Virus record (IMG/VR): IMGVR_UViG_3300037070_003409
Coordinates: 1 to 36,832 of that record
DNA: 36,832 bases
DNA from: a virus
Direction: 5' to 3' (one strand)
Part shown: positions 2,648-33,310 of the stretch, one piece after another
Layout: the number at the start of each line of letters is the position of its first letter
How positions within the stretch are numbered: position 1 is the first letter of the stretch
Notes under the pieces: model-generated
Database searches by the model: none
What the model saw: the letters and a program-made list of their open reading frames with translations, nothing else
What the model was told of the DNA's origin: nothing
Made by a program: the position numbers and the translations under genes

Positions 2648-3114
2648 TGGGCGTTTCTAGTAATGTCTACACCGTCACGGCGGTGCCAACACTCGACACC
2701 AACGCGTATGCGGCAAACGACCGTGTCGGCTCAATCATGACGTTCACGCCGAATATCGGTATCACCGCACCTGAGTTTACTATCCAGTCCATCGCGCTGA
2801 TTGACGGTGCAAAGCAGAGCATTGAGGCTGATGTGTTGTTCTTCAATGCGAGTCCTACAGTCGCCTCTGCGGACAACGCGGCGATCGACATCTCAGATGC
2901 CGAGATGGCAGCGAAGTTTGTTGGAAGCACCACAATCTATGCTTCTGACTACAAGGCGCTGGCGAACAACTCGGCAGCGACTGTCCGCAACGTCGGGCTC
3001 TCTCTCAAGACTACGGCAAGTAACAGCTTCTACGCAGTACTTGTGACCCGCGGAGCTCCGACCTATGCAGTGGATAGCTTGAAGTTTGTCGTCACTGTTG
3101 TTGCGGACTTTTAA
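2647..3114 (+). CDS. Virion-type beta-rich protein, 155 aa
   Basis: This protein has no charged patches typical of enzymes and is rich in Ala, Ser, Thr, Val and Asn. Its pattern (TLDTNAYAANDRVGSIMTF near the start, then VLFFNASPTVASADNAAIDI, ending APTYAVDSLKFVVTVVADF) is one I associate with small structural proteins found in many phage genomes. Those are often called hypothetical or tail/decoration proteins. It starts on the preceding stop (TAATG) after GAGGAGG at 2636-2642. The next gene, a LamG-type protein, begins at 3114 on its stop codon. The pair may form a surface module of the virion. The virion role is moderate; the exact position is unknown. Confidence 0.6.
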   Translation: MGVSSNVYTVTAVPTLDTNAYAANDRVGSIMTFTPNIGITAPEFTIQSIALIDGAKQSIEADVLFFNASPTVASADNAAIDISDAEMAAKFVGSTTIYASDYKALANNSAATVRNVGLSLKTTASNSFYAVLVTRGAPTYAVDSLKFVVTVVADF

Positions 3115-3869
3115 TGAAACGTAAAAGGATGAGTAGTGGCGGAAGGCCCTCGGTCTTAGACGGGCTTTATGCTTATTGGTTGCTCGATGAAGTGTCGGGG
3201 ACACGCAAGGAGCTCCTTCGCGGCTTCAACATGACCGACAACGGCTCGACTACATCGTCGACTACAGTTGTGAACGGCAACCAAGCGCGCTCGTGCCTGT
3301 TCTCTTCTGGCGGCACGATGTTCCTAAGTCATGACCGTACCGGTATTGGCGACATCTCGCCCGCCAACAAGGCGTTTAGTGTCTCGGCGTGGTACCAGCT
3401 GAGTGCTGCAAGCGGTATCTTGATTATTACTGGTATTTCCGCGGCATCAAATATCGAGTGGCGTCTCTATTGGGCTGCGGGTGGCTCGCAAGATGCTAAC
3501 GTCTTCTTGCTCAGTAATGATGGCTCGTCGACACACTTTGCACTCACCAATACCTCGACAGGTGGAGCGGGATCGACGCCGACAAACACCTGGATTCATA
3601 CTGTTGGGACATGGGACCCTGCGGCTAACGTCATCAAGTGCTATGTTAATGGTGTGGCTGGCACACCAGGTACTAAAGCGGTCAACGCGGGATTTCAAGG
3701 CACAGCGCAGTTTGGTATTGGCGGCGGGGTAGACAGTGGTGGCTCGCAGAGCGCGACGTTCAACGGCAAGGTGTCTAACGTTGGCTATTGGACTAAAGTC
3801 CTAACGCCGGCTGAAGTGCAGTACATTTACAACAAAAATAGAACGTGGCCTTTTTCAACTCCAATGTAG
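3114..3869 (+). CDS. LamG/concanavalin-like jelly-roll protein
   Basis: The 251-residue protein fits the laminin-G-like (concanavalin A-like) fold. It has an opening YAYWLLDEVSGT segment near residue 19, FSVSAWYQLS near 87, WIHTVGTWD near 162, the IKCYVNGVAGTPG strand pair near 174, and the closing FNGKVSNVGYWTKVLTPAEV near 217. Such domains bind carbohydrates or proteins, and in phages they occur on receptor-binding or decorating proteins. The start overlaps the stop of the preceding virion-type gene (TAATG), so the two are probably co-translated. No signal peptide is visible. It is probably exposed on the virion and binds a host glycan; that role is inference from the fold. Confidence 0.75.
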   Translation: MKRKRMSSGGRPSVLDGLYAYWLLDEVSGTRKELLRGFNMTDNGSTTSSTTVVNGNQARSCLFSSGGTMFLSHDRTGIGDISPANKAFSVSAWYQLSAASGILIITGISAASNIEWRLYWAAGGSQDANVFLLSNDGSSTHFALTNTSTGGAGSTPTNTWIHTVGTWDPAANVIKCYVNGVAGTPGTKAVNAGFQGTAQFGIGGGVDSGGSQSATFNGKVSNVGYWTKVLTPAEVQYIYNKNRTWPFSTPM

Positions 3870-4458: not shown

Positions 4459-4627
4459 ACCATACGCTGCGCACCGCGAAGAGACCAACTTTGAGCTCTT
4501 TGTCGAGGGCTTGTGTGTAAAGTACGGGGTTGCGAAGCCCGTAGCCGGAGAACGTGTGATGGAAGCTCTCGAAAAGATTCGCGACCTTCTTGAGAAGATG
4601 GATGACATTATCGAGGAACGGCAATGA
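4451..4627 (+). CDS. Small helical protein, 58 aa
   Basis: This ORF begins inside the end of the 4138 gene and ends by sharing ATGA with the start of the sugar synthase gene at 4624. The sequence (MSKPYAAHREETNFELF... then VMEALEKIRDLLEKMDDII) ends in a long amphipathic helix. The tight coupling on both sides and protein-like composition argue that it is real. Function unknown. Confidence 0.6.
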   Translation: MSKPYAAHREETNFELFVEGLCVKYGVAKPVAGERVMEALEKIRDLLEKMDDIIEERQ

Positions 4628-5565
4628 CCTACATCATCGCCGAGGTTGGCTCGAATTTCTCCACCTTCCAAGACTGCTCTCAGTCCATAACAACCGCCAA
4701 GCACTGTGGTGCTGACGCGGTAAAATTCCAGTACTTCACGCAAGAGAAACTCTACGGCTACTCCCATCAAACCGCACCACTCCCGGGCGAGCTGCCATTT
4801 GAGTGGATACCTGCATTATCAGAGAAAGCAAAAGCCGTTGGTATAGACTTCATCATCAGCGTATTTGACCTCGATGACATCGTCCTACTCGCTCCATACG
4901 TGGACGCCTTCAAGATAGCGTCGTGCGAATTTATGTATTTCGACTTGTATGCTGCTATCAAAGAGACGGGAAAGAAAATCATCGCCAGCTGCGGCGCGCA
5001 TACATATTATGAAGTGGAGACGGTGCTAAAAATCGAAGACGGCAGATATGCGCCAGACACCTTAATGTACTGCTGCGTGGAGTATCCATCGACACACCAT
5101 GATTTACGACACATTGAGAAGCTCTCTGTTTTGGCTCCAGGTACTACTATTGGCTACTCTGATCATTCAACAGATGTTTTTGCTGCACCGTGTGCTGCAG
5201 TCAGATACGGAGCAACCGTTATCGAAAAACATTTCAGACTCGATCACATTGTTGGTACGGCAGACTATGGTCATAGTCTTAACCCTATGGATTTTCAGCT
5301 CATGGTTAAAGCCATACGCGGACTCACTCTCGACATGCACGCTTTCCAAAACGATGCTGTTTTAAAGTATAAGCGCAGAATCAAAGCCATTGCCCCAATC
5401 GTCGTGGGCGAGCCGCTTGAGTTCCACGTAAACATCGGCTTCGTGCGGTCTAAAGAGAATGACACGCAAGGGGCGAGCTATTTGGCGCTACCGAAGCTTA
5501 ATGGGCAGCGGGCGAAGAGGGTCTATAGGCCAGGTGATCCCATCAATCCCGTGGATTATCAGTGA
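4624..5565 (+). CDS. neuB-like: NeuB/SpsE-type nonulosonic acid synthase
   Basis: Members of this family condense phosphoenolpyruvate with a six-carbon 2-acetamido sugar to make a nine-carbon acid (sialic, legionaminic or pseudaminic). The TIM-barrel signatures are clear: IAEVGSNF at 5-12, AVKFQYF at 32-38, GYSDHS at 177-182 and ATVIEKHF at 197-204. The two metal-binding histidines fall at His181 and His203, followed by the SLNP motif at 218-221. Residues 247-313 form a short SAF/antifreeze-like domain (AIAPIVVGEPL, then RAKRVYRPGDPI). At 313 residues it is somewhat shorter than the usual 340-350. It overlaps the preceding stop by four bases. It lies far from the other sugar genes at 23508-28160. 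Which of the three acids it makes cannot be told here. Confidence 0.9.
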   Translation: MTYIIAEVGSNFSTFQDCSQSITTAKHCGADAVKFQYFTQEKLYGYSHQTAPLPGELPFEWIPALSEKAKAVGIDFIISVFDLDDIVLLAPYVDAFKIASCEFMYFDLYAAIKETGKKIIASCGAHTYYEVETVLKIEDGRYAPDTLMYCCVEYPSTHHDLRHIEKLSVLAPGTTIGYSDHSTDVFAAPCAAVRYGATVIEKHFRLDHIVGTADYGHSLNPMDFQLMVKAIRGLTLDMHAFQNDAVLKYKRRIKAIAPIVVGEPLEFHVNIGFVRSKENDTQGASYLALPKLNGQRAKRVYRPGDPINPVDYQ

Positions 5566-5732
5566 GCCTTCTTGAGCCGATCCTTACTGCGCACAAGCGC
5601 GAGTGCGGTCGGTTCTATATCCGAGGCAAAGTCACGTCGCAGTACGTCTACGGAGTGTGTTCTAAGTGCGGCAACGTCCTAGAGATGTATAAAAAGGCCA
5701 TTTATGCAGTAAAGGTGCATAAAGTTGAATGA
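5562..5732 (+). CDS. Small zinc-ribbon-like protein, 56 aa
   Basis: A GTG at 5562 overlaps the stop of the NeuB-like gene (GTGA), and the ORF ends eight bases into the terminase start. The protein contains a CGRFYIRGKVTSQY segment and then VCSKCGNVLEMYKK, so it has three cysteines that could form half of a zinc ribbon. Beyond the cysteines nothing identifies it. It is a likely coupled small gene in the packaging operon. Confidence 0.5.
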   Translation: MSLLEPILTAHKRECGRFYIRGKVTSQYVYGVCSKCGNVLEMYKKAIYAVKVHKVE

Positions 5733-7035
5733 GAAAAGACAGTGGGCGCCGCACGGCGTAAAGCAAGACAAGATAGTTTTCTCAGAAGCGCGTCTACTAG
5801 TTGCCGCCACGGGTTTGCAGTTTGGCAAGACCGAAGCGGGTGCCATGTGGATGAAGCTTCAGATGCACACGCACACAGACCCCTCAGATACCTTCATCAT
5901 CTGCTCCCCATCGTTTCCCATCCTTAGACAGTCCACGCTTCCCCCGTTCCTCGAGATAATGCAGGGTCTTGGCGAGTACAATAAGCAAGAGAATTGCTTT
6001 AGGATGCACGGAGGCGGCATCTGCTACTTTCGTACAGGCGTTGACCCGCACAGTGTTGTCGGTATTACGAATGTGCGCTCAATTTTGTGTGATGAGGCGG
6101 GACTCTACTCAGTCTATTTCTGGAACCAAATCGTCATGCGCGCGTCGTTTCGTCAGGCGCCGATTCGAATCGTGACGACACCGTACGCGAGAAATTGGTT
6201 GTGGAAGGACTACGTCAGACCGCACCTCAAAGAGCCTGGCTGCATACCTAATTTCGAACTAGTTCAAGCAACCTCACAGGAGAATCCGTACTTTCCTAAA
6301 GAAGAATTCGAGGCGCGTAAGCGCTCGATGGACCCGCGCAGATTCAGCATGTTTTACTGTGCTGAGTTCGAGCAGATGATAGGCCTTGTCTACGATTGCT
6401 TTCACTACGATGAAAATATGTGCAAGCCGCGGACGCTGCCTGAGAGTACTCGCTTTGTCTCGGGAATAGACTGGGGCACGACCAACCCTTTCGCTCTTGT
6501 TGTGAGGGGCATCACTCTTTCTCAAGAGCATTTCGGTGTAGGCGAGTTCTATAAGTCAGGCATGGCTCTGACCGACATGAAGGCGATTATGAAGCAGTAC
6601 ATGGCGATGTATAATATCGAGACTTTTTTCTGTGACCCATCGGCGGCCGGGTATATTGAAGAGTGCAGGAGAGACGGCATTCCTGTTGTAGCCGCGGATA
6701 ACGACATCGATGTGGGGATACAGGCACACTACGAGCTAATCAAGAGCCGCCGTTATCAGATTTTCGACGGCAAGATGCCTTTTATGCTCGACGAGCTCGA
6801 TACCTACCACTACGCAGACCCTAAGGACGTAAAGCCCGACCAGGACGAAAAAGCTCCGAAGCCCGTGAAGCAGAACGACCACGCGATGGATGCTGAGCGC
6901 TACGTGACGGTGATGACGTACAAGGGGTTTGAGAAGACTAAGCCTCGGGTACCACATGAGAAAAACAAATTGACGGGACCTGCGTATGACCTTAGTATTC
7001 TAAAAAATCGGAACAAAAGAACCGAAGTTATGTGA
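5725..7035 (+). CDS. terL: Terminase large subunit
   Basis: This is the ATP-driven packaging motor with a C-terminal nuclease. The ATPase signatures are VAATGLQFGKTEAG at 26-39 (Walker A, Lys35) and SILCDEAGLY at 119-128 (Walker B, Asp123-Glu124). The nuclease domain starts at SGIDWGTTNPFALVV (246-260, Asp249) and includes FFCDPSAAG and a C-terminal NDHAMDAERY segment. At 436 residues it is on the short side of the usual 430-600 range. The start is TTG at 5725, overlapping the preceding ORF; no better start is seen upstream. The zinc-ribbon and portal genes follow directly, as in other head operons. The family is certain, the packaging type is not. Confidence 0.95.
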   Translation: MNEKRQWAPHGVKQDKIVFSEARLLVAATGLQFGKTEAGAMWMKLQMHTHTDPSDTFIICSPSFPILRQSTLPPFLEIMQGLGEYNKQENCFRMHGGGICYFRTGVDPHSVVGITNVRSILCDEAGLYSVYFWNQIVMRASFRQAPIRIVTTPYARNWLWKDYVRPHLKEPGCIPNFELVQATSQENPYFPKEEFEARKRSMDPRRFSMFYCAEFEQMIGLVYDCFHYDENMCKPRTLPESTRFVSGIDWGTTNPFALVVRGITLSQEHFGVGEFYKSGMALTDMKAIMKQYMAMYNIETFFCDPSAAGYIEECRRDGIPVVAADNDIDVGIQAHYELIKSRRYQIFDGKMPFMLDELDTYHYADPKDVKPDQDEKAPKPVKQNDHAMDAERYVTVMTYKGFEKTKPRVPHEKNKLTGPAYDLSILKNRNKRTEVM

Positions 7036-7385: not shown

Positions 7386-9203
7386 TTGGCAGAAGATACC
7401 CCATATTCCGACTCAGTCGGATTCAATAAGGGCGGTTCTGGCCGCAGCGAAGCGCCCGTCAAGGCGAACGCTGCCTATAACTCGACGCCTGAAGAGCAAG
7501 AGGCGGTGAAGTTAGTCGAGGACCTTTACCGCAAGGCTGCGAATTACCGCTCACGCTACGATGGGCGTTGGATGGACTTTTACAAGTTCTTCCGCGGCAA
7601 GCAGTGGCCGCAAAATCGTCCGAACTATAGAAACTCCGAAGTCATCAACATGGTGTTCCAGCTGATACAGCAGCAGGTCGCTGTGATGACGGATGCGAGG
7701 CCTCAGTTTGGCTTCATCGCAACCGAGCCAGAGGACAGAGAGTTTGCGCAGATTCTTAACGATTTGTCAGACTACGATTGGGATAAAAATAATTGGCTCG
7801 CAGTTTTGATCGAGCTAATTTACGACCTGAAAATATACGGAACATGTTGGTCGTATATGGGCTGGGATCAAGAGGCAAACTACGGCCTAGGCTCACCGTG
7901 CTGGGAATCTCGCGACCCATTCCTGATGTATCCGGATCCCGATGCGCGTCAGGTGGGGGATAAGCATTGTAGTTACGTCGTCGAAGCAGAATATGTGACG
8001 ACGGCGAAATTAAAAGGTAAATATCCCGAGCAAAAAGAATTTCTGTCGCCAGATATGAGCGACGTTTTCTCGATTGAACGCACAAATATCGCGCAAGGCG
8101 CAATTCCCTACATTTTAAACGACAAGTTTTTCTATGACGGCATCAATAAAGGCCTAAATCAAACTGTCGAGAAAACTCTAGTCAAGACGCTCTACTACCG
8201 CGACCCGCAAATCTGCGAAGACGACAATCCTGACAATCCCGAAGAGAAAATCACTAAATTAAAGTACCCGCACGGAAGAAAAATCGTGACGGCGTGTAAT
8301 TTAGTTCTTGAGGACGTGCCGCTCGACGAGAATTTCACGTATCCATTCCAAAAAGGCGTGAATTACGTCTTGCCGCGTGAGTTTTATGGCGTGTCTGAGA
8401 TTGAGCAGGTGGAAAGCCCGCAAAAGATCTTCAATAAACTCGTCTCGTTTGCCCTAGACGTCATGGTGTTCATGGGCAATCCGATTTGGATTGTGGATAA
8501 CGACTCCGAGGTAGACACGGACGGGATTTTCAACCAGCCCGGCCTCATCATAGAAAAAGCTAAGGGTTCTGAGGTGCGTCGCGAAGAGGGCGTGCAGCTT
8601 CAGCCTTATGTTTTGCAATTAATCGACCGAATGGAAGGTTGGTTTAATAATCTTGGCGGCTCTACTGATGTTACGCGTGGCGAGGCTCCTGGTGGGGTCA
8701 CTGCGTCGTCTGCGATTGAGCAACTTCTTGATACTGGCTTTACAAGGATTCGCCTCAATCTTCGCCTTGTAGACATGTACCTCCAGGATGTTGGCAGAGC
8801 TTGGGTTTATAACACCCTGAAGAACCGCACCGCACCGCAAGTGTACCGCATCACGAACGCGCAGGGACTTGAGCAGTATTTTAAATTGAGTGTGTCAAAC
8901 GCCGAAGGCAAGCGCACTGCCACGGTGACGCCAGTAGATGCCCAAAATGGTGTCTCGACCCAGGGTGAAACACGCGTATTCGAGATAAAGGGGAATTTTG
9001 ACGTGAAGGTTCAAACCTTGTCAGGGTTGCCGTTTAGTAAAGAGCAGGCTGAGACCAAGGCTTTTGCTCTCTTTGACCGCGGCCTAATCGACGCCGAAGA
9101 GGTCCTCAAAACTATCGACTATCCAAACCGCGAAGCGGTGTTGGAGCGTTTGCAGCAACAAGCCGCGCAAGCTGCGCAGGCACAACCGCAGGGAGCACAG
9201 TAA
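7386..9203 (+). CDS. Portal protein
   Basis: The 605-residue protein sits between terminase and scaffold, the standard place of the portal, the twelve-subunit ring through which DNA enters the capsid. It has a soluble N-terminal half (residues 65-200, WMDFYKFFRGKQWP, then NMVFQLIQQQVAVMTDARPQ). The central part (residues 300-460) contains the conserved VNYVLPREFYGVSEIEQVE, and a helical stem region follows (DRMEGWFNNLGGSTDVTRGE). The C-terminus is Gln/Ala rich. The overall length and pattern resemble the P22/SPP1-type portal group. It starts with TTG two bases after the previous gene and shares its stop region with the next gene (TAATG). Confidence 0.85.
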   Translation: MAEDTPYSDSVGFNKGGSGRSEAPVKANAAYNSTPEEQEAVKLVEDLYRKAANYRSRYDGRWMDFYKFFRGKQWPQNRPNYRNSEVINMVFQLIQQQVAVMTDARPQFGFIATEPEDREFAQILNDLSDYDWDKNNWLAVLIELIYDLKIYGTCWSYMGWDQEANYGLGSPCWESRDPFLMYPDPDARQVGDKHCSYVVEAEYVTTAKLKGKYPEQKEFLSPDMSDVFSIERTNIAQGAIPYILNDKFFYDGINKGLNQTVEKTLVKTLYYRDPQICEDDNPDNPEEKITKLKYPHGRKIVTACNLVLEDVPLDENFTYPFQKGVNYVLPREFYGVSEIEQVESPQKIFNKLVSFALDVMVFMGNPIWIVDNDSEVDTDGIFNQPGLIIEKAKGSEVRREEGVQLQPYVLQLIDRMEGWFNNLGGSTDVTRGEAPGGVTASSAIEQLLDTGFTRIRLNLRLVDMYLQDVGRAWVYNTLKNRTAPQVYRITNAQGLEQYFKLSVSNAEGKRTATVTPVDAQNGVSTQGETRVFEIKGNFDVKVQTLSGLPFSKEQAETKAFALFDRGLIDAEEVLKTIDYPNREAVLERLQQQAAQAAQAQPQGAQ

Positions 9204-10431: not shown

Positions 10432-11361
10432 ATGGCAAATCCAAATACAGACTATGGACAGGTCTCTGCGGTAACGCAGAAGTATTTTGTCCCCAAACTC
10501 GTAGACAACATTTTCGACTCTGACATCATCCTAAAAAAGGCGAAAGCCAACGGATGGTACGAGTCCCACGCTGGCGGTACGGAAATCGTATGCCCGCTCA
10601 ACTACGCTCTAGCAACCGCTTCCGGGTCTTACTCGGGTTCTGCAACGCTAGACACCACTGATAACGACGCCATCTCGGCTGCGGTATTCCAGTGGAAACA
10701 ATACTACGCGTCGATTTCCATCACGGGCAGAGACGAGATGATCAACTCTGGTACAGAGAAGATTATCGATTTCGTGAAGTCCAAGATGAAAATCGCCGAG
10801 AAGTCTTTGAAAGACACGCTCGGCACCGACGTGTACTCGGGTTCGAGCTCAACATCTCTTGTCGGTCTCAACACGGCTATCGCGACGGGTAGCACCTACG
10901 GCGGCATTAGCCAAACGAGTAACTCGTGGTGGAGGGGTAACGTTGATTCTTCGACGACGACGCTCACCATTCCGGCGATTCGTACGCTCTATACCACAGC
11001 GACCATTGATGATGAAGCCCCAACGCTTGGTCTGGCGACCCGTTCGGTATTCAACTCTTATCACGGTCTTCTACAGCCGCAGGAACGTTTCACGGATACC
11101 AAGACTGCCGATGCAGGGTTCTCGAATTTGCTTTTTGCTGGATGCCCGATCGTAATCACTACGAAAGCAAGCACCGGTGACTTGTATTTCTTGAACGAGA
11201 AGTATCTGCACCTCTGGTACCACCCAGAAAGAGATTTCATGTTCACGGGCTTCGACAAGCCAGTGAATCAGGACGTAAAGGTGGCTCAAATTCTTTGGTT
11301 CGGTGCGCTTGGTTCCGATAACAATCGGAAACACGCGGTATTCACCGGCCTCACAGCCTAA
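10432..11361 (+). CDS. Major capsid protein
   Basis: The 309-residue protein follows the scaffold and precedes a decoration-type protein, as expected for the coat. It begins with YGQVSAVTQKYFVPKLVDNI and has the helical/beta pattern of HK97-fold coats: a central ISITGRDEMINSGTEKII helix, a glycine/serine loop region, and the RSVFNSYHGLLQPQERF and SKFE-type later segments. It then has LWYHPERDFMFTGFDKPV and ends in ALGSDNNRKHAVFTGL. The HK97 fold itself is inferred from position and overall pattern. GGAGG is present upstream. The gene is long and uninterrupted, with the Asn/Ser/Thr content usual for coats. Confidence 0.85.
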   Translation: MANPNTDYGQVSAVTQKYFVPKLVDNIFDSDIILKKAKANGWYESHAGGTEIVCPLNYALATASGSYSGSATLDTTDNDAISAAVFQWKQYYASISITGRDEMINSGTEKIIDFVKSKMKIAEKSLKDTLGTDVYSGSSSTSLVGLNTAIATGSTYGGISQTSNSWWRGNVDSSTTTLTIPAIRTLYTTATIDDEAPTLGLATRSVFNSYHGLLQPQERFTDTKTADAGFSNLLFAGCPIVITTKASTGDLYFLNEKYLHLWYHPERDFMFTGFDKPVNQDVKVAQILWFGALGSDNNRKHAVFTGLTA

Positions 11362-11375
11362 GGAGGGCCGTAACT

Positions 11376-11864
11376 ATGACTGCATATTCTATTGGAGTTC
11401 TTTTCGACTCTGTCTCAGGCGTCACGGCGACGATGGGTACTAACGATGCCGAAGTCGGAACTGTTTGCCGCGTTGGCGACGAAGAGTACATCAAGGTGTA
11501 CAACACCGGCGCAGACCGTCAAATCAGTAAAGGCCTCGGAGCCACGTGCTCACTCGTTACCGGTTACTCGGTCACTGTGAGTTCAGTTTCGAATGACGTT
11601 TTTGTCGGAGTGGTTAAACACTCGACTTTGACGACTGGCACTTACGGCTGGCTCGTGCGCAAGGGCTTCGTAAGCGTCAACTTAGGCGCTGACGGTAGCT
11701 GCGCTGCAGGCGCTCCGTTGATGGCAGGCGTTGACGGCGTGTTCCAAGGAAGCGTGTCAACCACGTTTACCTCGGCTCACCTTTTCACCGGTAACACCTA
11801 CGCAAAAGCGATGGAAGCTATTGCTTCCGGAGCGAGTGGTTCGGCGTACATCTCGATTTACTAA
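11376..11864 (+). CDS. Decoration/cement-type head protein (DUF2190-like)
   Basis: The 162-residue protein starts after AAGGAGGGCCG and has a beta-rich, Gly/Thr/Ser/Val-rich pattern. Segments VFVGVVKHSTLTTGTYGWLV near 82 and GADGSCAAGAPLMAGVDGVF near 110 resemble the capsid cement proteins (DUF2190) found next to coats. These sit on the outside of the capsid and stabilise it. It directly precedes the Maf-like gene at 11882, which makes it a candidate substrate. That link is inference. The product is probably surface-exposed on the head. Confidence 0.65.
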   Translation: MTAYSIGVLFDSVSGVTATMGTNDAEVGTVCRVGDEEYIKVYNTGADRQISKGLGATCSLVTGYSVTVSSVSNDVFVGVVKHSTLTTGTYGWLVRKGFVSVNLGADGSCAAGAPLMAGVDGVFQGSVSTTFTSAHLFTGNTYAKAMEAIASGASGSAYISIY

Positions 11865-11881: not shown

Positions 11882-12919
11882 ATGGTTAGGAAAGCTGAAG
11901 TTGTTCTCGAATATCAGCCGCTGTTAGATGCGCCCCCGGCTAGTCCAAAGGCTCTTCTGCAGCAGGCGTGCTCGAATGATGACACGACGATAGGTTCTTG
12001 GCTAGATCAGTGGATCGATCAATATCGCGCCAATGCAGCCAAGTACGGACCGTTTAAGGACAGGAGCGTTGGACAGTTGTACGGCAAGTATAAAAACATG
12101 CCTTGCATCATTGCCGGCTCCGGCCCGTCACTTAAGAACAACGCCCATTTGCTCAAAGACCGGGGGCCTAATATGCCCCTGGTTTCTTGTCTACATAACT
12201 TCCATTTCATGGAGGATTTGGAAGCCAATGTAGACCTCTACGTCACTCTCGACGCTGGTGAAATCACTATCGACGAGGTGTGTGAGGGCGGAAAACATCC
12301 GCCGGAGCATTACTGGGAGCTAACCAAGAACAGAACTCTAGCCGCGTATTGCGGGACTCATCCGAAGTTACTTGAAAAATGGCAAGGTGAAATTCTTTTC
12401 TACAACTGCACTATCCCTTCGGAAAAATATATCGAAGCGGTAGAGGAGACAGATAAGTTTTTCACTCTTGTTAGTAACGGCGGCAACGTATTTGGAAGCT
12501 GTCTCTACCTCGCTAAATGTTTTCTCGGATGCAATCCGATAGCGTTTATCGGGGCAGATTTTTCTTTCTCTTACGGTGCTGGCGAAGCAGGTCACCAGTT
12601 TCATCCGTGGGATAGTAAGTACGACCGAAAGCTTGGGGCATACACCAAAGCGGTCGACGTCTACGGAATCCCCGTTAAAACTTGGCCTTCGTATTCAAAT
12701 TTCAAAGCATGGTTTGAATACGTGTCGATGCAGGTTCCGGGCTGTTACATCAACTGCACCGAGGGCGGAACATTGGGAGCGTATCCTGGTGGGAACCTGA
12801 GGTCTTTTGAGTACATGGACCTGGCCCAGTTTCTCGACAGCTACAATGTCATGAGACATGTGAAAAAACAGATCGACACACCAGACTTGTCGCGGGCAGA
12901 GCGGCTTGTCGTATTTTAA
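11882..12919 (+). CDS. Maf-like glycosyltransferase candidate (DUF115/MptE-like fold)
   Basis: DUF115/6-hydroxymethylpterin-pyrophosphokinase-MptE-like proteins include the flagellar Maf family, which attaches nonulosonic acids to flagellin. Clear signs here are IIAGSGPSL at 76-84, VDLYVTLDAG near 118-126, SNGGNVFGS at 198-206, IGADFSFS at 223-230 and INCTEGG at 290-296, then a Gly-rich AYPGGNLRSFE turn. The start at 11882 has AGGAG nine bases upstream; the TTG at 11876 is too close. It is 345 residues, about the size of the single DUF115 domain region, without the long tail of many Maf proteins. It is co-oriented with and just after the capsid and decoration genes. With the NeuB-like and sugar genes it suggests transfer of a nonulosonic acid onto a protein. 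Pterin-type activity is an alternative but less fitting. Confidence 0.75.
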   Translation: MVRKAEVVLEYQPLLDAPPASPKALLQQACSNDDTTIGSWLDQWIDQYRANAAKYGPFKDRSVGQLYGKYKNMPCIIAGSGPSLKNNAHLLKDRGPNMPLVSCLHNFHFMEDLEANVDLYVTLDAGEITIDEVCEGGKHPPEHYWELTKNRTLAAYCGTHPKLLEKWQGEILFYNCTIPSEKYIEAVEETDKFFTLVSNGGNVFGSCLYLAKCFLGCNPIAFIGADFSFSYGAGEAGHQFHPWDSKYDRKLGAYTKAVDVYGIPVKTWPSYSNFKAWFEYVSMQVPGCYINCTEGGTLGAYPGGNLRSFEYMDLAQFLDSYNVMRHVKKQIDTPDLSRAERLVVF

Positions 12920-12934
12920 AAGGAGGCCACTGGG

Positions 12935-13201
12935 ATGGCATACACGGTAGCAATCGACAAGACTACATTCGGTAATAAAAAAGTTCACATCATGAACATC
13001 ATCGCAGATGGTGCAGAGGCTAACTTGACGACAGGCCTCGCGATCATCGACGGTGTTTCGATGTGCAAGAAGAGTATGAACTCTTCCAACATGCACGTTG
13101 AGGTTAACAAAAACAGTACTGCCGCAGTGGCAAACGGCACCATCGGCATCTCGGGATGTACGGCTGGTGACGATTTCTGTTTGGTTGTTTACGGTCATTA
13201 A
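12935..13201 (+). CDS. Small virion-associated protein, 88 aa
   Basis: AAAGGAGG precedes the start and the gene follows the Maf-like gene closely. The protein starts MAYTVAIDKTTFGNKKVH and is beta-rich, with Asn/Ser/Thr/Ala-rich stretches (KSMNSSNMHVEVNKNSTA), cysteines near the end and no enzyme motif. Position between the Maf-like gene and head-completion genes suggests a structural role, possibly a small head or head-tail protein. No family recognised. Confidence 0.6.
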   Translation: MAYTVAIDKTTFGNKKVHIMNIIADGAEANLTTGLAIIDGVSMCKKSMNSSNMHVEVNKNSTAAVANGTIGISGCTAGDDFCLVVYGH

Positions 13202-15155: not shown

Positions 15156-17069
15156 ATGCCTTTCGGACCGCAATCAAAAATCTATCCCGGCAACGGCCGC
15201 GTTCGCTTTAATGGCGGGCAAAACAATAAGTATCACCGTGAAATTATTGCTGACAATGAAAGCCCGGATTGCGCCAACGTACGCTTTACTGATGATTCGG
15301 TAGAAACCCGCGGCGGCTCGACAAAGCTAAATAGCACGACACCCGTCGGGAGCTTTGTTTGTGACGGTCTTTACACAAGACACACAAACGACGGCCAAGA
15401 GAGCATGATTGCTTGGTTTGGCGGGACTGCTCATGTCTACACCGCGCCGAGTTTCATCACCATCCCGAGCGCACTTTCGATTTACACTGCGGGTGTGAGA
15501 GTTGGTGCCGCGGAGCAAGAAAACTACCTCTTTATGGGGAACGGCGGAACACTCGCCTATAAATATAACGGTTATTTCACGCGCCACGGCGTTTATACGC
15601 CTCCGACCACGCCAACGGTCGCGTCAAACAGCACGGGCGTTGTCACTGGTGACGTAAGATACAAGGTTTTGTTTGTAAACAGCGGTGTTGTGGAAGGCGA
15701 CGTAAGTACGGCTACGTCCACGTTTACGGCAACGTCGACTGGGTCGCAGCTGCGCCTGACTTCGCTTCCGGTCGCTCCGACAAGTTGGGGCGTCAACGCT
15801 AGGCGCATCTACCGCGCCGAGGGATCAAGTACAACCTACAACCGCCTTGCAACTATCTCTGACAACACGACGACAACCTACGATGACAACACGGCAATTG
15901 GTACACTTACCACGCCTGCGCCAACAAATAATGGCGTTCCGCCTCTATATAACAGCATCTGTCAGGCAAAAGGCCGGCTGTTTTGCAACGATACGGCGAA
16001 CCTGAACTACGTTTGGTATTCCAACGCTAACGACCCGTATAATTTTGGGGCTGCCAACTTTCTGCGCGTTGGAGACAACACGGCAGATATTGTGCGCGGC
16101 GTCACGACATATAACGACAATATCGTGGTGCTTTGCGACAAGGGCATTTACATCATCTATATTGCAGACCCAACGCCATCGAACTGGCAAGTCATCAAGA
16201 CTAAAAGTCCTTATGGGTGCAAGAGCCCGTACGGAACATTGAAATATAACGACCGCCTGCTGTTTCCGGCGGTGCAGTCAGACAAGTTTGTGGGCTTTGC
16301 CGCACTGTCTGGCGACTCGATTGAGCCTGAGGCCTCGCTTCTTACCGTTTCAACAGCGTTAAGCGAACTAAAGAGCGATCCCATCGAACCTGACATGTTT
16401 AATATCGTCGCCGCGCAGTTATCCTCAATTTATGCACAGGTATACCTCAACCTTGGGTACATCTCAGTACCCTACGGAGTAGGGGTTACAAAGAACACCA
16501 GAATTTACGTCTATGACTTCTCGCTGAAGTCTGGGACTAAACAAGAAAGCCCGGCGTGGTCTCCAGACACCGGAGTAAACGCCAACCAGTTTACGATTTA
16601 TGCCGGTAATATTTACTTCGGCACTGCAAATGCGACAGGCGGGTATGTTCATCAATACGAAACGGCAACATACAATGACGACGGCACTGCAATCGATAGC
16701 TACTACTGGACAAAAGAATTTTCAGGTGGGAAAAACGAGCAAAATTACATAAAGGACTGGCGTCATGTAAATTTGCTCTATGAACTTTCCGGAAGCTATT
16801 ACCTGGAGATGCGCTACCGTGTGGACTCTGACAACGGTGTCGGTAACTCGGCGCTTATTGATGCTACCCCAGGCGGCTCGCTTTGGGGGTTTTTTATCTG
16901 GGGTGTAAATAACTGGGACGTGGGACGTCAAGAAAAAGACCTCAAGCAGTTCCTCGGACAGTTACGTGGCAAGAGAATTCAGCTAAAATTCTCAAATAGA
17001 AATACGGCCAATCAAAAGTTCAAAATCATCGGACTTAACTTCGTATACAACGCTAAGGGGCTAAGATAA
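15156..17069 (+). CDS. Large beta-propeller-like tail nozzle/hub protein
   Basis: This 637-residue protein starts right after the adaptor and is dominated by beta strands with many Gly, Asn, Thr and Tyr residues. It opens KIYPGNGRVRFNGGQNN and continues with a GGSTKLNSTTPVGSFVCDGL segment near 53. A second part around residues 150-250 has Thr/Ser-rich fibronectin-like repeats (VTGDVRYKVLFVNSGVVEGD). The later half is beta-propeller-like, including YNDNIVVLCDKGIYIIYI near 310. P22 gp10 and related nozzle or stabilisation proteins have this general make-up. It closes the portal-adaptor channel and may hold the spike. The assignment rests on position and size. Confidence 0.75.
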   Translation: MPFGPQSKIYPGNGRVRFNGGQNNKYHREIIADNESPDCANVRFTDDSVETRGGSTKLNSTTPVGSFVCDGLYTRHTNDGQESMIAWFGGTAHVYTAPSFITIPSALSIYTAGVRVGAAEQENYLFMGNGGTLAYKYNGYFTRHGVYTPPTTPTVASNSTGVVTGDVRYKVLFVNSGVVEGDVSTATSTFTATSTGSQLRLTSLPVAPTSWGVNARRIYRAEGSSTTYNRLATISDNTTTTYDDNTAIGTLTTPAPTNNGVPPLYNSICQAKGRLFCNDTANLNYVWYSNANDPYNFGAANFLRVGDNTADIVRGVTTYNDNIVVLCDKGIYIIYIADPTPSNWQVIKTKSPYGCKSPYGTLKYNDRLLFPAVQSDKFVGFAALSGDSIEPEASLLTVSTALSELKSDPIEPDMFNIVAAQLSSIYAQVYLNLGYISVPYGVGVTKNTRIYVYDFSLKSGTKQESPAWSPDTGVNANQFTIYAGNIYFGTANATGGYVHQYETATYNDDGTAIDSYYWTKEFSGGKNEQNYIKDWRHVNLLYELSGSYYLEMRYRVDSDNGVGNSALIDATPGGSLWGFFIWGVNNWDVGRQEKDLKQFLGQLRGKRIQLKFSNRNTANQKFKIIGLNFVYNAKGLR

Positions 17070-23303: not shown

Positions 23304-23511
23304 TTATGTTGTGACTTTGTTATGTATTTTTAATGTAGCTATTTTTGCTGCCTCAGCCTTTCTTTACTATAAATCCAAACAAAAAAAGATCGAACGCATA
23401 CCTGACAAAGACGCTTTGGAAGTCTTAGCCGATCTGCAACGTGGCGGTGCCATTTTGCGCATTCATCATGTGCCCGGAGACAGCGTCTACATCAGGAGTC
23501 CGCGTCAATGA
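23296..23511 (+). CDS. Small membrane protein, 71 aa
   Basis: The protein starts MAIYVVTLLCIFNVAIFAAS with one N-terminal transmembrane segment (residues 3-25), followed by a basic stretch (YKSKQKKIERIPDK) and a short cytoplasmic-like tail. No ribosome site is visible before its ATG, which lies inside a hairpin, so leaderless or coupled translation is possible. It shares ATGA with the dehydratase start. A membrane anchor or sugar-operon regulator is a guess. Confidence 0.55.
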   Translation: MAIYVVTLLCIFNVAIFAASAFLYYKSKQKKIERIPDKDALEVLADLQRGGAILRIHHVPGDSVYIRSPRQ

Positions 23512-24368
23512 CAGCGCTTATCGCGGGCGGCACGGGAACTCTCGGAACGACGCTGATGAAAAGGCTTGTGCAGCGCGGGACTCCCGTGATTTGCTTTTCT
23601 CGCGATGAGCAAAAACAGCAAGCCCTAAAAAAGGAGTTCCCAAGTGTTCGATTTATTATTGGGGACATTCGTGATCGGCGCGCTCTTGATCGGATCATTG
23701 ACCGTGTTGACGTTGTATTTCACGTCGCCGCCCTAAAGCACGTTGACGCCCTCGAGGAGAACGAGGATGAGGCTATTCAGACGAATTATTACGGCACTCG
23801 TAACCTTGCTTACTGGGCTATCGAGCGTGGCGTACCTCAAGTCGTCTTTTCGTCAACTGACAAAGCGGTCAACCCGTTCAATATGTATGGGATGTCAAAA
23901 GCGCTCGCTGAAAACCTGCTATTTCGTCTTAACCGGGAACAAAAAGTTACAAACTTTTCTGTGTTTCGATGGGGCAATGTGCTGGGCTCTCGGGGGTCGG
24001 CAATTCATACGTTTGTCAAGACGCTGATGGAAGATGGTTCGATTGGGATCACGGACCCCGCAATGACGCGCTTTTGGATTTTGATCGAAGATGCCGTAGA
24101 TTTCATGCTCTCAAGTTACCGCACACCGAAAAACGCTCCCAAAATCCCAGAAATGAAGGCAGCGCTCACAACTGAAGTTGCCGCAGCTGTAGCCAAAGCT
24201 CTTAACGTTGAGGCCTACGAGACACGCATCATCGGTACGCGTCCTGGTGAAAAAATTCATGAATGTATCTTTTCAAGCCACGACTTCTGCATCCGAAGCG
24301 ACACCGCGGAACGGTTCACCGACGAGGAGCTCCTCGACACCGTAAAAAGGGCTCTCAATGTTAAGTAA
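23508..24368 (+). CDS. pseB-like: UDP-GlcNAc 4,6-dehydratase (PseB/LegB/FlaA1-like)
   Basis: This is a short-chain dehydratase of the family that makes the UDP-4-keto-6-deoxy sugar beginning the pseudaminic and legionaminic acid routes. Evidence: GGTGTLG at 7-13 for NAD(P), AALKHVD at 75-80, the STDKAVNPFNMYGMSK catalytic block (Asp118, Lys119, Tyr127, Lys131), RWGNVLGSRGS at 154-163 and GTRPGEKIHE at 243-252. These are typical of the PseB/FlaA1 branch rather than plain epimerases. At 286 residues it is shorter than the usual 320-340. It overlaps the small membrane gene by four bases and the next gene by eleven. The exact stereochemistry of the product cannot be read from sequence. Confidence 0.88.
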   Translation: MTALIAGGTGTLGTTLMKRLVQRGTPVICFSRDEQKQQALKKEFPSVRFIIGDIRDRRALDRIIDRVDVVFHVAALKHVDALEENEDEAIQTNYYGTRNLAYWAIERGVPQVVFSSTDKAVNPFNMYGMSKALAENLLFRLNREQKVTNFSVFRWGNVLGSRGSAIHTFVKTLMEDGSIGITDPAMTRFWILIEDAVDFMLSSYRTPKNAPKIPEMKAALTTEVAAAVAKALNVEAYETRIIGTRPGEKIHECIFSSHDFCIRSDTAERFTDEELLDTVKRALNVK

Positions 24369-25008
24369 AATCTACCTTGTCGGTGCTAACGGCAACATGG
24401 GAAGGCGCTACCAAGCAATCCTGAAGTGGATACGCGTTCCCTACAAAACCTGCGACATCGACCACGATGAGGGCCTCGACGGTTGCGACGGCGTTATCAT
24501 AGCGACTCCCACGTACACGCACGAGGCTCTTGCCGAGCGCTTCATGCACACGTACCCGACGCTGTGTGAGAAGCCTATTTGGACACAGCGATACAATTTC
24601 TACACGCGCTTTACTCGCGACGACGAAGGCATGTGGATGGCAAAGGATTTTCGAGACTACAGTAAGCTCAGGATGGTAAATCAGTACCGCCGAGTGCTCG
24701 ATGTAGCGAAAGACACGCGCGCCACCAACACCTTCTATAATTTCTACAAACATGGAAGTGATGGTCTTATTTTCGACTGCATCGGCATTTATGGAAACAT
24801 GAAATCTTTTGACACAAGCGCTCTGGAGCTCAGAGAAGATAGTCCTGTGTGGTCATGCTGTATCGATGGGAAAATTTTAGACATCGCCGACATGGACCAA
24901 GCCTATGTTACAGAGATTTTTGAATGGGTGAAAAATCCAACTGGTAATTTGCATTATATGTGCGAAGCGCATCACCGTGCTTTTCAACTACAAGAGCAGT
25001 TTCAATGA
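24358..25008 (+). CDS. Short Gfo/Idh/MocA-type oxidoreductase-like protein
   Basis: The N-terminal Rossmann part is clear: IYLVGANGNMGRRY at 5-18, then DGVIIATPTYTHEALAERF and PTLCEKPIW with the EKP catalytic-type lysine. The family usually has 320-350 residues with a large C-terminal domain. Here it ends at 216, with a shortened second half (DGLIFDCIGIYGNMKSF, then DMDQAYVTEIFEWVK). It sits in a sugar operon where such NAD(P)-dependent enzymes often reduce or oxidise ketosugars. It may be a reduced but working form or a non-catalytic partner. The eleven-base overlap with the dehydratase suggests coupled expression. Confidence 0.75.
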   Translation: MLSKIYLVGANGNMGRRYQAILKWIRVPYKTCDIDHDEGLDGCDGVIIATPTYTHEALAERFMHTYPTLCEKPIWTQRYNFYTRFTRDDEGMWMAKDFRDYSKLRMVNQYRRVLDVAKDTRATNTFYNFYKHGSDGLIFDCIGIYGNMKSFDTSALELREDSPVWSCCIDGKILDIADMDQAYVTEIFEWVKNPTGNLHYMCEAHHRAFQLQEQFQ

Positions 25009-25706
25009 CCGAAGTTTTACTCGCAATCCAAGCGCGCTCCACAAGCTCTAGGCTCCCCAATAAGGGCTTTGCGATGATTGGCGCTTCCACGATGACGGAA
25101 AAAGTCATCACCGCGGCCCTTAACTCGGCCAAACACTGCGGCGACCGCCGGGACTACAAAGCAGACGTGGCGGTTGCGCTTCTCATCCCCAAAGGCGACC
25201 CCCTCAAGATGTACGAGAACGTCGTGGACATTGTGGAGGGTGACGAGCATGACGTGCTTTCTCGCTATCACGCAGCATTCGCGAAGCACAACCCGAAGTA
25301 CATCGTGAGGCTCACCGGCGACTGCCCGGACATCAAACCTGCGATGATCACAAAAATCATCGATACGGCGCGTTCAAAACAGGCCGACTACGTGTCAAAC
25401 TGTGGTGAAGAATGGCGTACCTCGGCAGATGGGCATGACGTGGAAATCATGTCAGCTCGGATGTTCCTCTGGAACTATGAAAACGCCGAGACCCCAGAAG
25501 AGAGAGAACACGTCACCATTGCCATCAAACGCCGGGCTCCAAAGTGGGCCGTACGCGGCGCATGCCTCTACCAAGTTGACAACTCCGACCAGAAGTGGAG
25601 CGTAGACGAGCCTCAGGACTTGGCGATACAACGCGAACGTGACGCCAGGATGGTTCAGAAGACGAAAATTGCAAAGATGACTCATAACTTTGTGGTGTGG
25701 TTTTGA
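25005..25706 (+). CDS. SpsF/NeuA-type cytidylyltransferase
   Basis: This COG1861-type nucleotidyltransferase would activate an acidic sugar by CMP transfer. Motifs are IQARSTSSRLPNKGF at 8-22, the EGDEHDVLSRYHAAFAKH block, RLTGDCPDIKP and the late WSVDEPQDL. The start at 25005 shares ATGA with the previous stop; an upstream start at 24960 would only extend backwards over the previous gene. It is 233 residues, close to the usual 230-250. It fits a pathway in which NeuB makes the acid and this enzyme makes the CMP-sugar donor for a Maf-like transferase. SpsF proteins have also been named spore-coat or glycosyltransferase in annotation, so the donor type is inferred. Confidence 0.85.
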   Translation: MTEVLLAIQARSTSSRLPNKGFAMIGASTMTEKVITAALNSAKHCGDRRDYKADVAVALLIPKGDPLKMYENVVDIVEGDEHDVLSRYHAAFAKHNPKYIVRLTGDCPDIKPAMITKIIDTARSKQADYVSNCGEEWRTSADGHDVEIMSARMFLWNYENAETPEEREHVTIAIKRRAPKWAVRGACLYQVDNSDQKWSVDEPQDLAIQRERDARMVQKTKIAKMTHNFVVWF

Positions 25707-26272
25707 CAGAAAAAAGATGCAGAAAATGTTTAGCAACTAAGCCATTTTCGGCATTTCATCGTGATAAGTACAAAAAAGACGGTAAAAATAACCGTTGTAT
25801 CACTTGCGTTTATACTAAGGTGAAAGACCCTAAGCCTCCTGGTCGCAAGAAGAGTCCTGAAAAAAAATGTCCGCGCTGCCTGGTGATTAAAACTCGCAAT
25901 GATTTTTATGATAACAAGGCTGGTATATCCTGGCTGTGCAAACTGTGCGTAAAAGACTACCGGCAAGATGGGAATGGACACGAAAGTGTTCTAAGGGCCG
26001 CAAAAAAATTCCGCGATAGCCCAGCTGGTAGAGAATATCGGCGATCATACATGCGGAAATTTGGAGCCAAATACCGCGAAAAATATAAGGCCGAAGGAAA
26101 AATTAAAGCCCGTTCTTTGGCTCGGTACCATGTAAAAAAACTCCCATGTAAGGTGTGCGGAGATAAGAAAACGCAAGCTCACCATCATGACTACTCCAAA
26201 CCGTTAGACGTGACATGGCTTTGTTCAAAACATCACAGCGAGACGCATCATGGATTCGCCCCTCTGGACTAG
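25697..26272 (+). CDS. HNH-type zinc-finger protein, 191 aa
   Basis: The protein has three cysteine modules: RCRKCLATKPFSAFHRD at 7-23, KCPRCLVIKTRNDFYDN, and a C-terminal CKVCGDKKTQAHHHDY followed by WLCSKHHSETHH. The last resembles the His/Cys core of HNH-type endonucleases commonly seen as small phage zinc proteins. The start is GTG 25697 (TTG 25703 is the alternative), overlapping the cytidylyltransferase end by ten bases and the next gene by 23. The sequence is more AT-rich and Lys-rich than its neighbours. This suggests an inserted homing-type gene, or one involved in DNA packaging or recombination. Confidence 0.7.
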   Translation: MVLTEKRCRKCLATKPFSAFHRDKYKKDGKNNRCITCVYTKVKDPKPPGRKKSPEKKCPRCLVIKTRNDFYDNKAGISWLCKLCVKDYRQDGNGHESVLRAAKKFRDSPAGREYRRSYMRKFGAKYREKYKAEGKIKARSLARYHVKKLPCKVCGDKKTQAHHHDYSKPLDVTWLCSKHHSETHHGFAPLD

Positions 26273-27455
26273 GTACCAAAATGTTATAAGTCAAGGTTGC
26301 CTTACGAACAGTAAGCACCCGCGTAGCCATGTTTATGGTGTGTATCCACAGGTCATAAAGAGAGCAATCGGCACCGTTCTTTATGATGAACACGACAATT
26401 CATACATAGATTTTTGTGGCGGTCTCGGAACTAATTTGCTCGGGTATGGAAATAGTGCGATCGCTAAGCGCGTCGGCGAATTCCTCCACCTTGGGCTCTG
26501 TCCAAGTTTCGGAACTGAGGCCGAGGTAATCGCAGCCGAGAAATTGGCAGCGTTATTTCCGTTCACTGAAAAATTCAAATTCCTGAAGTCAGGTTCGGAG
26601 GCATGCAGTGCTGCCATTAAGATTGCAAGGGCTCACACTGGTAGATCTCTTGTTATTTCAGAGTCTTACCACGGTTGGCATGACCCTTTTGTTAACCTCA
26701 CAGAGCCGGCTATTGGTGTCGATCGGACGGTTAATACTAGGTCTCTTGCTAATTACGATGGGGATTTTTCTGACGTTGCGGCTGTCATCATTGAACCAAT
26801 CGTAACTGACACAGGTCAAGAACGCCTGGAGTGGCTCCGTGCGCTAAGAGAGAAATGTACGAAAGCTGGAGCAATGCTTATCCATGATGAGATTGTGACA
26901 GGCTTCCGCGTGCCTAAATTCTCTATGTCTAATTACTACGGTATTGAGCCTGATCTTATAGTGCTCGGCAAAGCTATGGCCGGAGGTTTCCCTCTTGCGT
27001 GCGTGGGTGGTAAGGCCAACGTTATGGACGGTAAGTTTTTCGTCTCCTCCACCTACGCCGGCGAAATCCTAAGCCTCATCGCCTGCTCTGAAGTCATCAA
27101 CCAACTCACACGCGGCACCTACAAGCTAGAAGAGTTGTGGAAGCAAGGCGGGGCATTCCGCGATGAAGTCAACGGCCTGTGCGACGGCCTCATCACGTTT
27201 AACGGGTACAATACGCGCGGCACAATCACAGGACGTGATGACCTCACCAAAGCACTCTTCTTCCAAGAATGTTGCAAAGCCCGCGTGATTTTCGGCCCGT
27301 CGTGGTTCTATAATTTCCAACACGAGCAGCACAAGGATGCGGTGCTGGCAACGGTGCGGCATGTGATAGGGAAAATCAAATTGGGTGCGGTGAAGCTTGA
27401 GGGTGAGATGCCTCGGGTCGCGTTCGCACAACAACAGAGAGAGGCAAAAGCATGA
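26250..27455 (+). CDS. HemL-like class-III aminotransferase
   Basis: Similar to glutamate-1-semialdehyde aminomutase, a PLP enzyme of the class-III fold. Motifs: SGSEACSAAIKIAR at 114-127, YHGWHD at 140-145, IHDEIVTGFR at 211-220 (Asp213) and VLGKAMAGGFPL with the PLP lysine at Lys241. It is 401 residues against about 430 for HemL, and lies in a sugar operon, so tetrapyrrole synthesis is unlikely. HemL-like enzymes are known beside SpsF, NeuB and Gfo/Idh genes in bacterial surface-sugar clusters, where they presumably aminate a ketosugar. It overlaps the HNH gene by 23 bases. PseC/LegC-type aminotransferases are a different fold, so the pathway is non-canonical. Confidence 0.85.
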   Translation: MDSPLWTRYQNVISQGCLTNSKHPRSHVYGVYPQVIKRAIGTVLYDEHDNSYIDFCGGLGTNLLGYGNSAIAKRVGEFLHLGLCPSFGTEAEVIAAEKLAALFPFTEKFKFLKSGSEACSAAIKIARAHTGRSLVISESYHGWHDPFVNLTEPAIGVDRTVNTRSLANYDGDFSDVAAVIIEPIVTDTGQERLEWLRALREKCTKAGAMLIHDEIVTGFRVPKFSMSNYYGIEPDLIVLGKAMAGGFPLACVGGKANVMDGKFFVSSTYAGEILSLIACSEVINQLTRGTYKLEELWKQGGAFRDEVNGLCDGLITFNGYNTRGTITGRDDLTKALFFQECCKARVIFGPSWFYNFQHEQHKDAVLATVRHVIGKIKLGAVKLEGEMPRVAFAQQQREAKA

Positions 27456-27649
27456 GCGACGACATTTCAAAGTTAGACGAGCTAAAGACCGACAGCATGA
27501 GGCTCATGGAGCTTCAGCAACAGGTGCTCAACAAATGTAAAGAGATTACGGGATTTGACAATAAGCCAGTGACTCCCATCCAAGTCATCGAAATCGTCCG
27601 TCACGCTTTTGGAATAGAGCCTAAGTGCAATGAAACTCCGAAGGCTTGA
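27452..27649 (+). CDS. Small helical protein, 65 aa
   Basis: The start shares ATGA with the aminotransferase stop. The 65-residue protein is helical (LDELKTDSMRLMELQQQVLN and IQVIEIVRHAFG), with no cysteine pair or domain I recognise. It ends 20 bases into the GNAT gene, so it sits inside the sugar operon between two enzymes. A carrier, adaptor or subunit role is possible. Confidence 0.55.
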   Translation: MSDDISKLDELKTDSMRLMELQQQVLNKCKEITGFDNKPVTPIQVIEIVRHAFGIEPKCNETPKA

Positions 27650-28160
27650 GCCTAGAGATTTAGAAGATACGTTTGCTTGGCGCAATGATCCCGAGGTGTG
27701 GATTTGGTGCCGGCAATATGCGCCGCTTCACCGTGAGAAGCATGTGGAATGGTACGATTGGCAGGCAAAAGACCCTGCGGTATCGATGTTTGCGATTACG
27801 GTAGCATACGATGAGCCGAGACTGGTAGGCGTCTGCGGCCTCACGTCAATCGACCACGTCAATGCCAGGGCCGAGTTCTCCTGCTATATAGCTCCAGAGC
27901 ATCGCGGAAACCGTTACGCCGAACGGGCCCTGCAGGGGCTATTTAGTCACGGTTTCGACTACCTTAACCTAAACTCCATTTGGGGCGAGACCTTTGAGGG
28001 AAACCCAGCTAGCGGCCTGTTTTTAAAGCTCGGCATGACCCATGATGGGATTAGGCGAAATGGGTACTACCGCGGCGGTATGTATATCGACGCCCACCTT
28101 TACTCTCTACTCAAAAGCGAGTACTTGGAGTTACCATGGAAATCGCACTTCTTGTTCTAA
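27630..28160 (+). CDS. GNAT acetyltransferase (PseH/RimJ-like)
   Basis: A 176-residue GNAT-fold protein that would transfer an acyl group from acyl-CoA to an amine. Features: LRRLEPRDLEDTFAWRNDPE at the start, VGVCGLTSIDHVNARAEFSC, the APEHRGNRYAERAL acetyl-CoA loop (about 90-103) and SIWGETFEGNPASGLFLKLG. It overlaps the preceding gene by 20 bases and the next by 25. In pseudaminic acid synthesis PseH acetylates the 4-amino group of the sugar; this similarity plus the operon makes that a reasonable role here. RimJ/RimL-type protein acetylation is the alternative. Confidence 0.82.
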   Translation: MKLRRLEPRDLEDTFAWRNDPEVWIWCRQYAPLHREKHVEWYDWQAKDPAVSMFAITVAYDEPRLVGVCGLTSIDHVNARAEFSCYIAPEHRGNRYAERALQGLFSHGFDYLNLNSIWGETFEGNPASGLFLKLGMTHDGIRRNGYYRGGMYIDAHLYSLLKSEYLELPWKSHFLF

Positions 28161-33274: not shown

Positions 33275-33310
33275 CAGACCTGATGCCGTGTGTTAGCGTC
33301 TCTCCTAAGA

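Follow-up and report, generated by a model that had tools for sequence, protein, structure and literature searches.

On balance, the tailed phages described here, a large and uncultured lineage, seem to synthesize CMP-nonulosonic acid themselves and, by means of a Maf-type transferase encoded in the head module, to cover their capsids with sialic-acid-like sugars. The gene in question lies at 11882-12919 of the window, as we call the whole stretch of DNA analyzed here, and its product is very probably a nonulosonate transferase. The 36,832 bases of the window are the size of the virus contig IMGVR_UViG_3300037070_003409, and because a direct terminal repeat of 126 bases is found at both ends (4-129 is the same as 36707-36832), the contig is probably a complete genome. 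The Maf-like gene is surrounded by those for a terminase, a P22/SU10-type portal, the major head protein, and an SU10-type adaptor:

5725..7035, plus strand: terminase large subunit (phrog_10250, E=1.7e-27)
7386..9203, plus strand: P22/SU10-type portal protein (PF16510, E=1.1e-29)
10432..11361, plus strand: major capsid protein (MCP), a candidate acceptor (phrog_9953, E=3.9e-58)
11376..11864, plus strand: capsid decoration protein, a candidate acceptor (AlphaFold2 model with pLDDT 83, fold matches)
11882..12919, plus strand: Maf-like (PF01973) protein of 345 aa, a predicted minimal nonulosonate transferase (Pfam, AlphaFold2 model)
12935..13201, plus strand: g88, a conserved 88-aa open reading frame directly behind the Maf-like gene, a candidate acceptor or partner

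A sequence-only reading of this DNA had placed the Maf-like gene directly behind the major capsid and decoration genes, and this is borne out by the phrog match of the MCP and by the fold of the 11376-11864 product. The label “decoration” is supported by the predicted fold: the model resembles the capsid decoration or stabilization proteins of HFTV1, FCWL1, Sf11, T1, and TW1, together with the base of the phi29 head fiber (Z 9-13). The same product has no Pfam match and, by tblastn against INPHARED, no match in a named phage. Elsewhere in the window, 15156-17069 encodes a conserved 637-aa tail-region protein, the C-terminus of which matches an amidase phrog (E=3e-11), and an ERCC4-type nuclease domain protein (34010-34492) adjoins an HNH endonuclease gene (33290-34009).

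The Maf-like open reading frame begins with an ATG at 11882, nine bases downstream of the ribosome-binding site TTAGGAG. Its translation carries the motifs AGSGPSL (78-84), IGADFSF (223-229), and NCTEGG (291-296), and PF01973 (MptE-like, formerly DUF115) is the sole Pfam domain above cut-off (E=1.1e-20; 74.5 bits against a curated cut-off of 34.6); the frame, the motifs, and the family are thus all as the sequence-only reading had described them. The NCBIfam model for PseD (flagellin modification) matches residues 68-297 weakly (E=0.0011, below its curated cut-off). Across 62 Maf-like sequences the catalytic-domain motifs are invariant or nearly so, and among close relatives dN/dS is 0.04-0.07 (about 0.05); the gene is under purifying selection.

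For the fold, the same number of sequences (62), translated from the window and related viral contigs, was used as input for AlphaFold2, which returned a model with a mean pLDDT of 95.4. Comparison with Maf crystal structures had been named beforehand as a check on the family assignment, with a mismatch as grounds for refutation, and the best match of the predicted model in the PDB (Foldseek and VIA-align) is indeed the Magnetospirillum Maf 5MU5 (Z 22.5, rmsd 3.1, 242 residues). Archaeal MptE comes second (8sd5, Z 14.7), and the CMP-sialic-acid transferases ST8SiaIII (5bo9, Z 9.3) and CstII (1ro8, Z 9.2) match more weakly. A profile search of the PDB with the protein again found 5MU5 (E=0.00012). 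The alignment pairs model residues 34-322 with no more than 239-514 of 5MU5 (345 versus 632 aa). By this alignment and by Pfam, the protein lacks the Rossmann-like N-terminal domain and the helical C-terminal domain of a full-length Maf. Since only Maf 239-514 has a counterpart, we call the protein a minimal Maf which, judged by the model, consists of the central catalytic domain alone. The identification as Maf therefore stands for the catalytic domain and not for the flanking domains of the flagellar enzymes. MptE-like proteins of other uncultured phages were also found in a viral structure library.

The second part of the argument is the sugar pathway, which the earlier reading had placed in the same genome. 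Its genes are as follows:

4624..5565, plus strand: NeuB-family nonulosonate synthase, just upstream of the terminase (PF03102, E=4.6e-45)
23508..24368, plus strand: PseB-like UDP-GlcNAc 4,6-dehydratase (PF02719, E=6.9e-72; 2gn4, E=1.7e-52)
24358..25008, plus strand: short Gfo/Idh/MocA-type NAD-binding protein (PF01408, E=2.9e-05)
24960..25706, plus strand: cytidylyltransferase, presumed CMP-nonulosonate synthase (PF02348, E=2.6e-13; 6oew, E=3.1e-11)
26250..27455, plus strand: class III (GSA-type) aminotransferase, presumed sugar aminotransferase (PF00202, E=1.1e-39)
27630..28160, plus strand: PseH-like GNAT acetyltransferase (PF13302, E=2.3e-23)

NeuB matches SpsE and the sialic acid and pseudaminic acid synthases of the PDB (aligned to 1vli, 6ncs, and 8h2c), and its synthase motifs are conserved across 17 phage copies. 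The other five genes lie downstream of a tail-fiber gene with an S74 chaperone domain. Against the pathway-specific models, the PseB-like dehydratase (TIGR03589, E=4.7e-67) and the GNAT protein (TIGR03585 PseH, E=3.5e-13) both fall below the curated cut-offs. What the earlier reading called a nonulosonate pathway is thus present as NeuB, PseB-like dehydratase, CMP synthase, aminotransferase, and acetyltransferase; the UDP-sugar hydrolase is the missing part, as neither PseG (TIGR03590) nor NeuC (Epimerase_2, PF02350) was recognized in any of 18 genomes (the window genome and 17 relatives). The aminotransferase of the classical pathway is of the DegT type, and its place is occupied here by the class III aminotransferase and the short Gfo/Idh protein. 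Together with the lack of a recognizable hydrolase, this possibly marks an unusual nonulosonate route.

On four viral contigs of 30-75 kb (L258, L259, L274, and L276), genes of the Gfo/Idh, class III aminotransferase, PseB-like, and NeuB kinds occur together, with no terminase or Maf-like gene of the window family in the retrieved stretch; this co-carriage supports the view that the phage sugar genes form one pathway. Upstream of NeuB, 3114-3869 encodes a Concanavalin-A-like LamG/pentraxin-domain protein, possibly a lectin-like virion part, with a relative in only one (L004) of the first 85 loci.

How widely is this arrangement shared? An alignment scan found 137 relatives of the Maf-like protein in total, and we examined 85 viral loci in which it is 46-56% identical to that of the window. 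The gene is on the head-gene strand and in the same position in all 85, and the order portal, scaffold, MCP, decoration, Maf-like, g88 is kept wherever the contig reaches. g88 itself is present in 82 of them, with a median gap of 10 bases from the Maf-like gene. Because it recurs in so many loci with proteins this divergent, the arrangement is a trait of the lineage and no chance placement.

So that loci would be chosen independently of the Maf-like gene, a search based on the MCP was also run. It yielded 68 newly fetched loci (some on contigs already seen), with the Maf-like gene in 63 and four too short to tell, which leaves L162 as the exception among the 64 counted as long enough. The L162 contig stops some 200 bases past the matched MCP, the room having been measured from an earlier MCP match. 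Searching from the sugar side, the single window NeuB found no related loci, and an alignment of NeuB found 330 relatives; among the best 80 of these, 65 viral loci have a terminase of the window family. Thirty-two NeuB loci with the terminase have no match to the Maf-like protein, and most of them end short of the position where the gene would be.

In the near-complete genomes, NeuB, the CMP synthase, and the GNAT gene are each present in 17 of 18, the PseB-like and Gfo/Idh genes in 16 of 18, and the aminotransferase in all 18 (one copy degenerate). Neither NeuB nor PF01973 was found in the ten named phages nearest by MCP (NeuB 17/18 versus 0/10, Fisher p ~1e-6, with the caveat that related genomes are not independent). 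One MCP-related phage, L131 (MW202825.1), has an annotated endo-N-acetylneuraminidase (8784-8870, cut) downstream of its head genes. The Maf-like protein had no tblastn match in INPHARED at E 0.01, so no cultured member was found. When one genome each of 84,980 species was scanned, a single 3.5-kb contig matched, from an Actinomycetota metagenome-assembled genome, which is too little for naming a host.

The exception among the near-complete genomes deserves attention. G004 (L014, L088, L089), a complete relative, keeps an intact Maf-like gene and lacks NeuB, the CMP synthase, the PseB-like gene, and Gfo/Idh; its aminotransferase is the degenerate one, with the conserved lysine motif GKAMAGG changed to GAANACG. 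This phage may rely on a sugar made by its host; otherwise the Maf-like protein must do something more. Of all the observations, G004 speaks most strongly against a simple model.

An enzyme that depends on a phage-made sugar should diverge in step with the pathway that supplies it. Partial Mantel tests on 26 non-redundant loci, controlled for portal, terminase, adaptor, and g15156, link the divergence of the Maf-like gene to that of NeuB (r=0.39, p=0.0005). In 16 near-complete genomes, with the MCP controlled in addition to the backbone genes, the gene tracks NeuB (0.52), CMP synthase (0.48), aminotransferase (0.54), and GNAT (0.54), with p values of 0.001-0.004, and does not track the PseB-like or Gfo/Idh genes. 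The other structural genes tested in these genomes show a weaker link to the nonulosonate genes or none; terminase falls in between (0.29-0.41 with three of the nonulosonate genes), possibly an effect of its position next to NeuB. Many pairs were tested and the Mantel test is liberal, so the contrast between genes should be given more weight than any single p value. By that contrast, divergence of the Maf-like gene follows the four sugar genes more consistently than does any other structural gene tested.

The best explanation of these findings is, we think probably, that the Maf-like protein acts as a CMP-nonulosonate-dependent protein glycosyltransferase on a virion protein, a candidate acceptor being encoded close by. 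The phage would supply most of the CMP-sugar synthesis (PseB-like dehydratase, class III aminotransferase, GNAT, NeuB, and CMP-sugar synthase), with the UDP-sugar hydrolase step probably coming from the host or from an unrecognized gene. Working in the cytoplasm, the minimal Maf would use the CMP-activated nonulosonic (sialic-acid-like) sugar as donor and attach the sugar to Ser/Thr residues on a virion protein, either ahead of head assembly or in its course. There is bacterial precedent: flagellin is bound by Maf and receives nonulosonate from the CMP-activated form while still in the cytoplasm, prior to export (PMC4065374); Maf is also promiscuous toward donors, with no acceptor sequon known (PMC11339370). 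Head assembly in phages is likewise cytoplasmic, so capsid subunits could be modified in the same way with no need for secretion. We infer the donor, the protein nature of the acceptor, its place in the virion, and the benefit, which might be, for example, particle stability or surface charge. The suggestion of the earlier reading that the phage glycosylates its own head or tail is partly supported.

As for the acceptor, the target would most likely be the decoration protein or the MCP, the products of neighboring genes. The decoration protein is rich in Ser and Thr, and several of its columns are Ser/Thr in more than 90% of relatives, which is suggestive only as a hint of glycosylation. A mirror-tree search for acceptors gave no link between the Maf-like gene and either the decoration protein or g88, and a link to the MCP in only one of two data sets (the 26 loci); no acceptor is therefore named with confidence.

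Other explanations must be weighed. The leading one, which we consider unlikely, is that the transferase and the sugar genes act on the surface of the host (capsule, O-antigen, flagellin, or pilin), for instance as a barrier to superinfection. Bacterial Maf does modify flagellin (PMC4065374), and EpaA/EpaB of Acinetobacter prophages alter the pseudaminic acid of the capsule (PMC12053666). However, that known example is a prophage altering a sugar already made by its host, and a long-lived lysogen is unlikely here because no integrase was recognized among the larger window open reading frames scanned with Pfam and only the one 3.5-kb contig matched among 84,980 species. Moreover, the gene lies between head genes in every locus, where timing and dose would suit virion parts.

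It is more doubtful still that the virion contains the Maf-like protein as a structural or accessory part, namely a lectin-like capsid factor that binds nonulosonate and is inactive as a transferase. Its constant position beside the decoration gene would fit, as would its retention in G004 despite decay of the sugar pathway, but a protein of that kind would not account well for catalytic-domain motifs that are nearly invariant over 62 sequences, nor for co-evolution with the biosynthesis genes, which is as expected of an enzyme tied to its donor.

Modification of phage DNA with the nonulosonate we regard as very improbable: phages often glycosylate their DNA through dedicated transferases (PMC12619734), but the known targets of Maf and sialyltransferase folds are proteins or glycans (PMC11339370), the gene belongs to the head module, and no base-hypermodification gene was recognized among the open reading frames scanned. 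An MptE-type pyrophosphokinase of pterin metabolism can be all but dismissed, for although PF01973 carries the MptE name and 8sd5 is the second-best fold, Maf is clearly the better match and is joined by the weak PseD profile match, the gene is tightly linked to nonulosonate genes, and no pterin or folate genes were recognized among the larger open reading frames scanned with Pfam.

The preferred reading, a Maf-type transferase that serves the virion, can now be set beside known systems. The Maf flagellin glycosyltransferases (Magnetospirillum 5MU5, Campylobacter PseD/PseE, Aeromonas Maf1, and Clostridium CbMaf) share with the phage protein the PF01973 catalytic domain and fold, the GSGPS motif, and a nonulosonate pathway in the same genome; the phage gene differs in lying in a head module, in its length of about 345 aa without N- or C-terminal accessory domains, and in the presumed acceptor, a virion protein, no flagellin having been recognized in the window. 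The GT42/GT29 sialyltransferases (CstII, ST8SiaIII) have a related fold (Z about 9) and use CMP-sialic acid as donor, but they extend glycans; Maf, to which the phage protein is more similar, modifies protein. Archaeal MptE, a 6-hydroxymethylpterin diphosphokinase of the same Pfam family and fold, is smaller (about 216 residues) and belongs to a pterin pathway without a link to sugar genes.

Among phages, virion glycosylation is described for mycobacteriophages Che8 and Rita (Freeman et al. 2023, via PMC11256854 and PMC12619734), where phage glycosyltransferases are thought to glycosylate capsid or tail proteins. The putative transferases of Maravista, by contrast, lie near the 3′ genome end, and the accessible portion of the source mentions no nonulosonate or Maf (PMC11256854). 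EpaA/EpaB are phage-encoded nonulosonate enzymes too, but they change a capsule sugar made by the host, and the accessible text has no mention of a Maf or a virion target (PMC12053666). In the open-access literature, preprints excluded, we found no account of Maf-type enzymes or of a nonulosonate pathway serving a virion. This suggests that, virion glycosylation and flagellar Maf being already known, what would be new is a Maf and a nonulosonate pathway in the service of the phage virion.

Few phages are known to glycosylate their virions, and the open-access literature presents Maf as a modifier of flagellin. In the lineage described here, with hundreds of detected relatives, the nonulosonate pathway and the Maf-like enzyme are near-core. 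The enzyme would make a naturally minimal Maf domain available for enzymology and would offer an answer, open to test, on the purpose of virion sugars in phages outside animals. If our reading is true, bacterial viruses would possess a self-contained system for the sialylation-like modification of their virions, and protein sialylation-like chemistry would be a standing part of virion biology.
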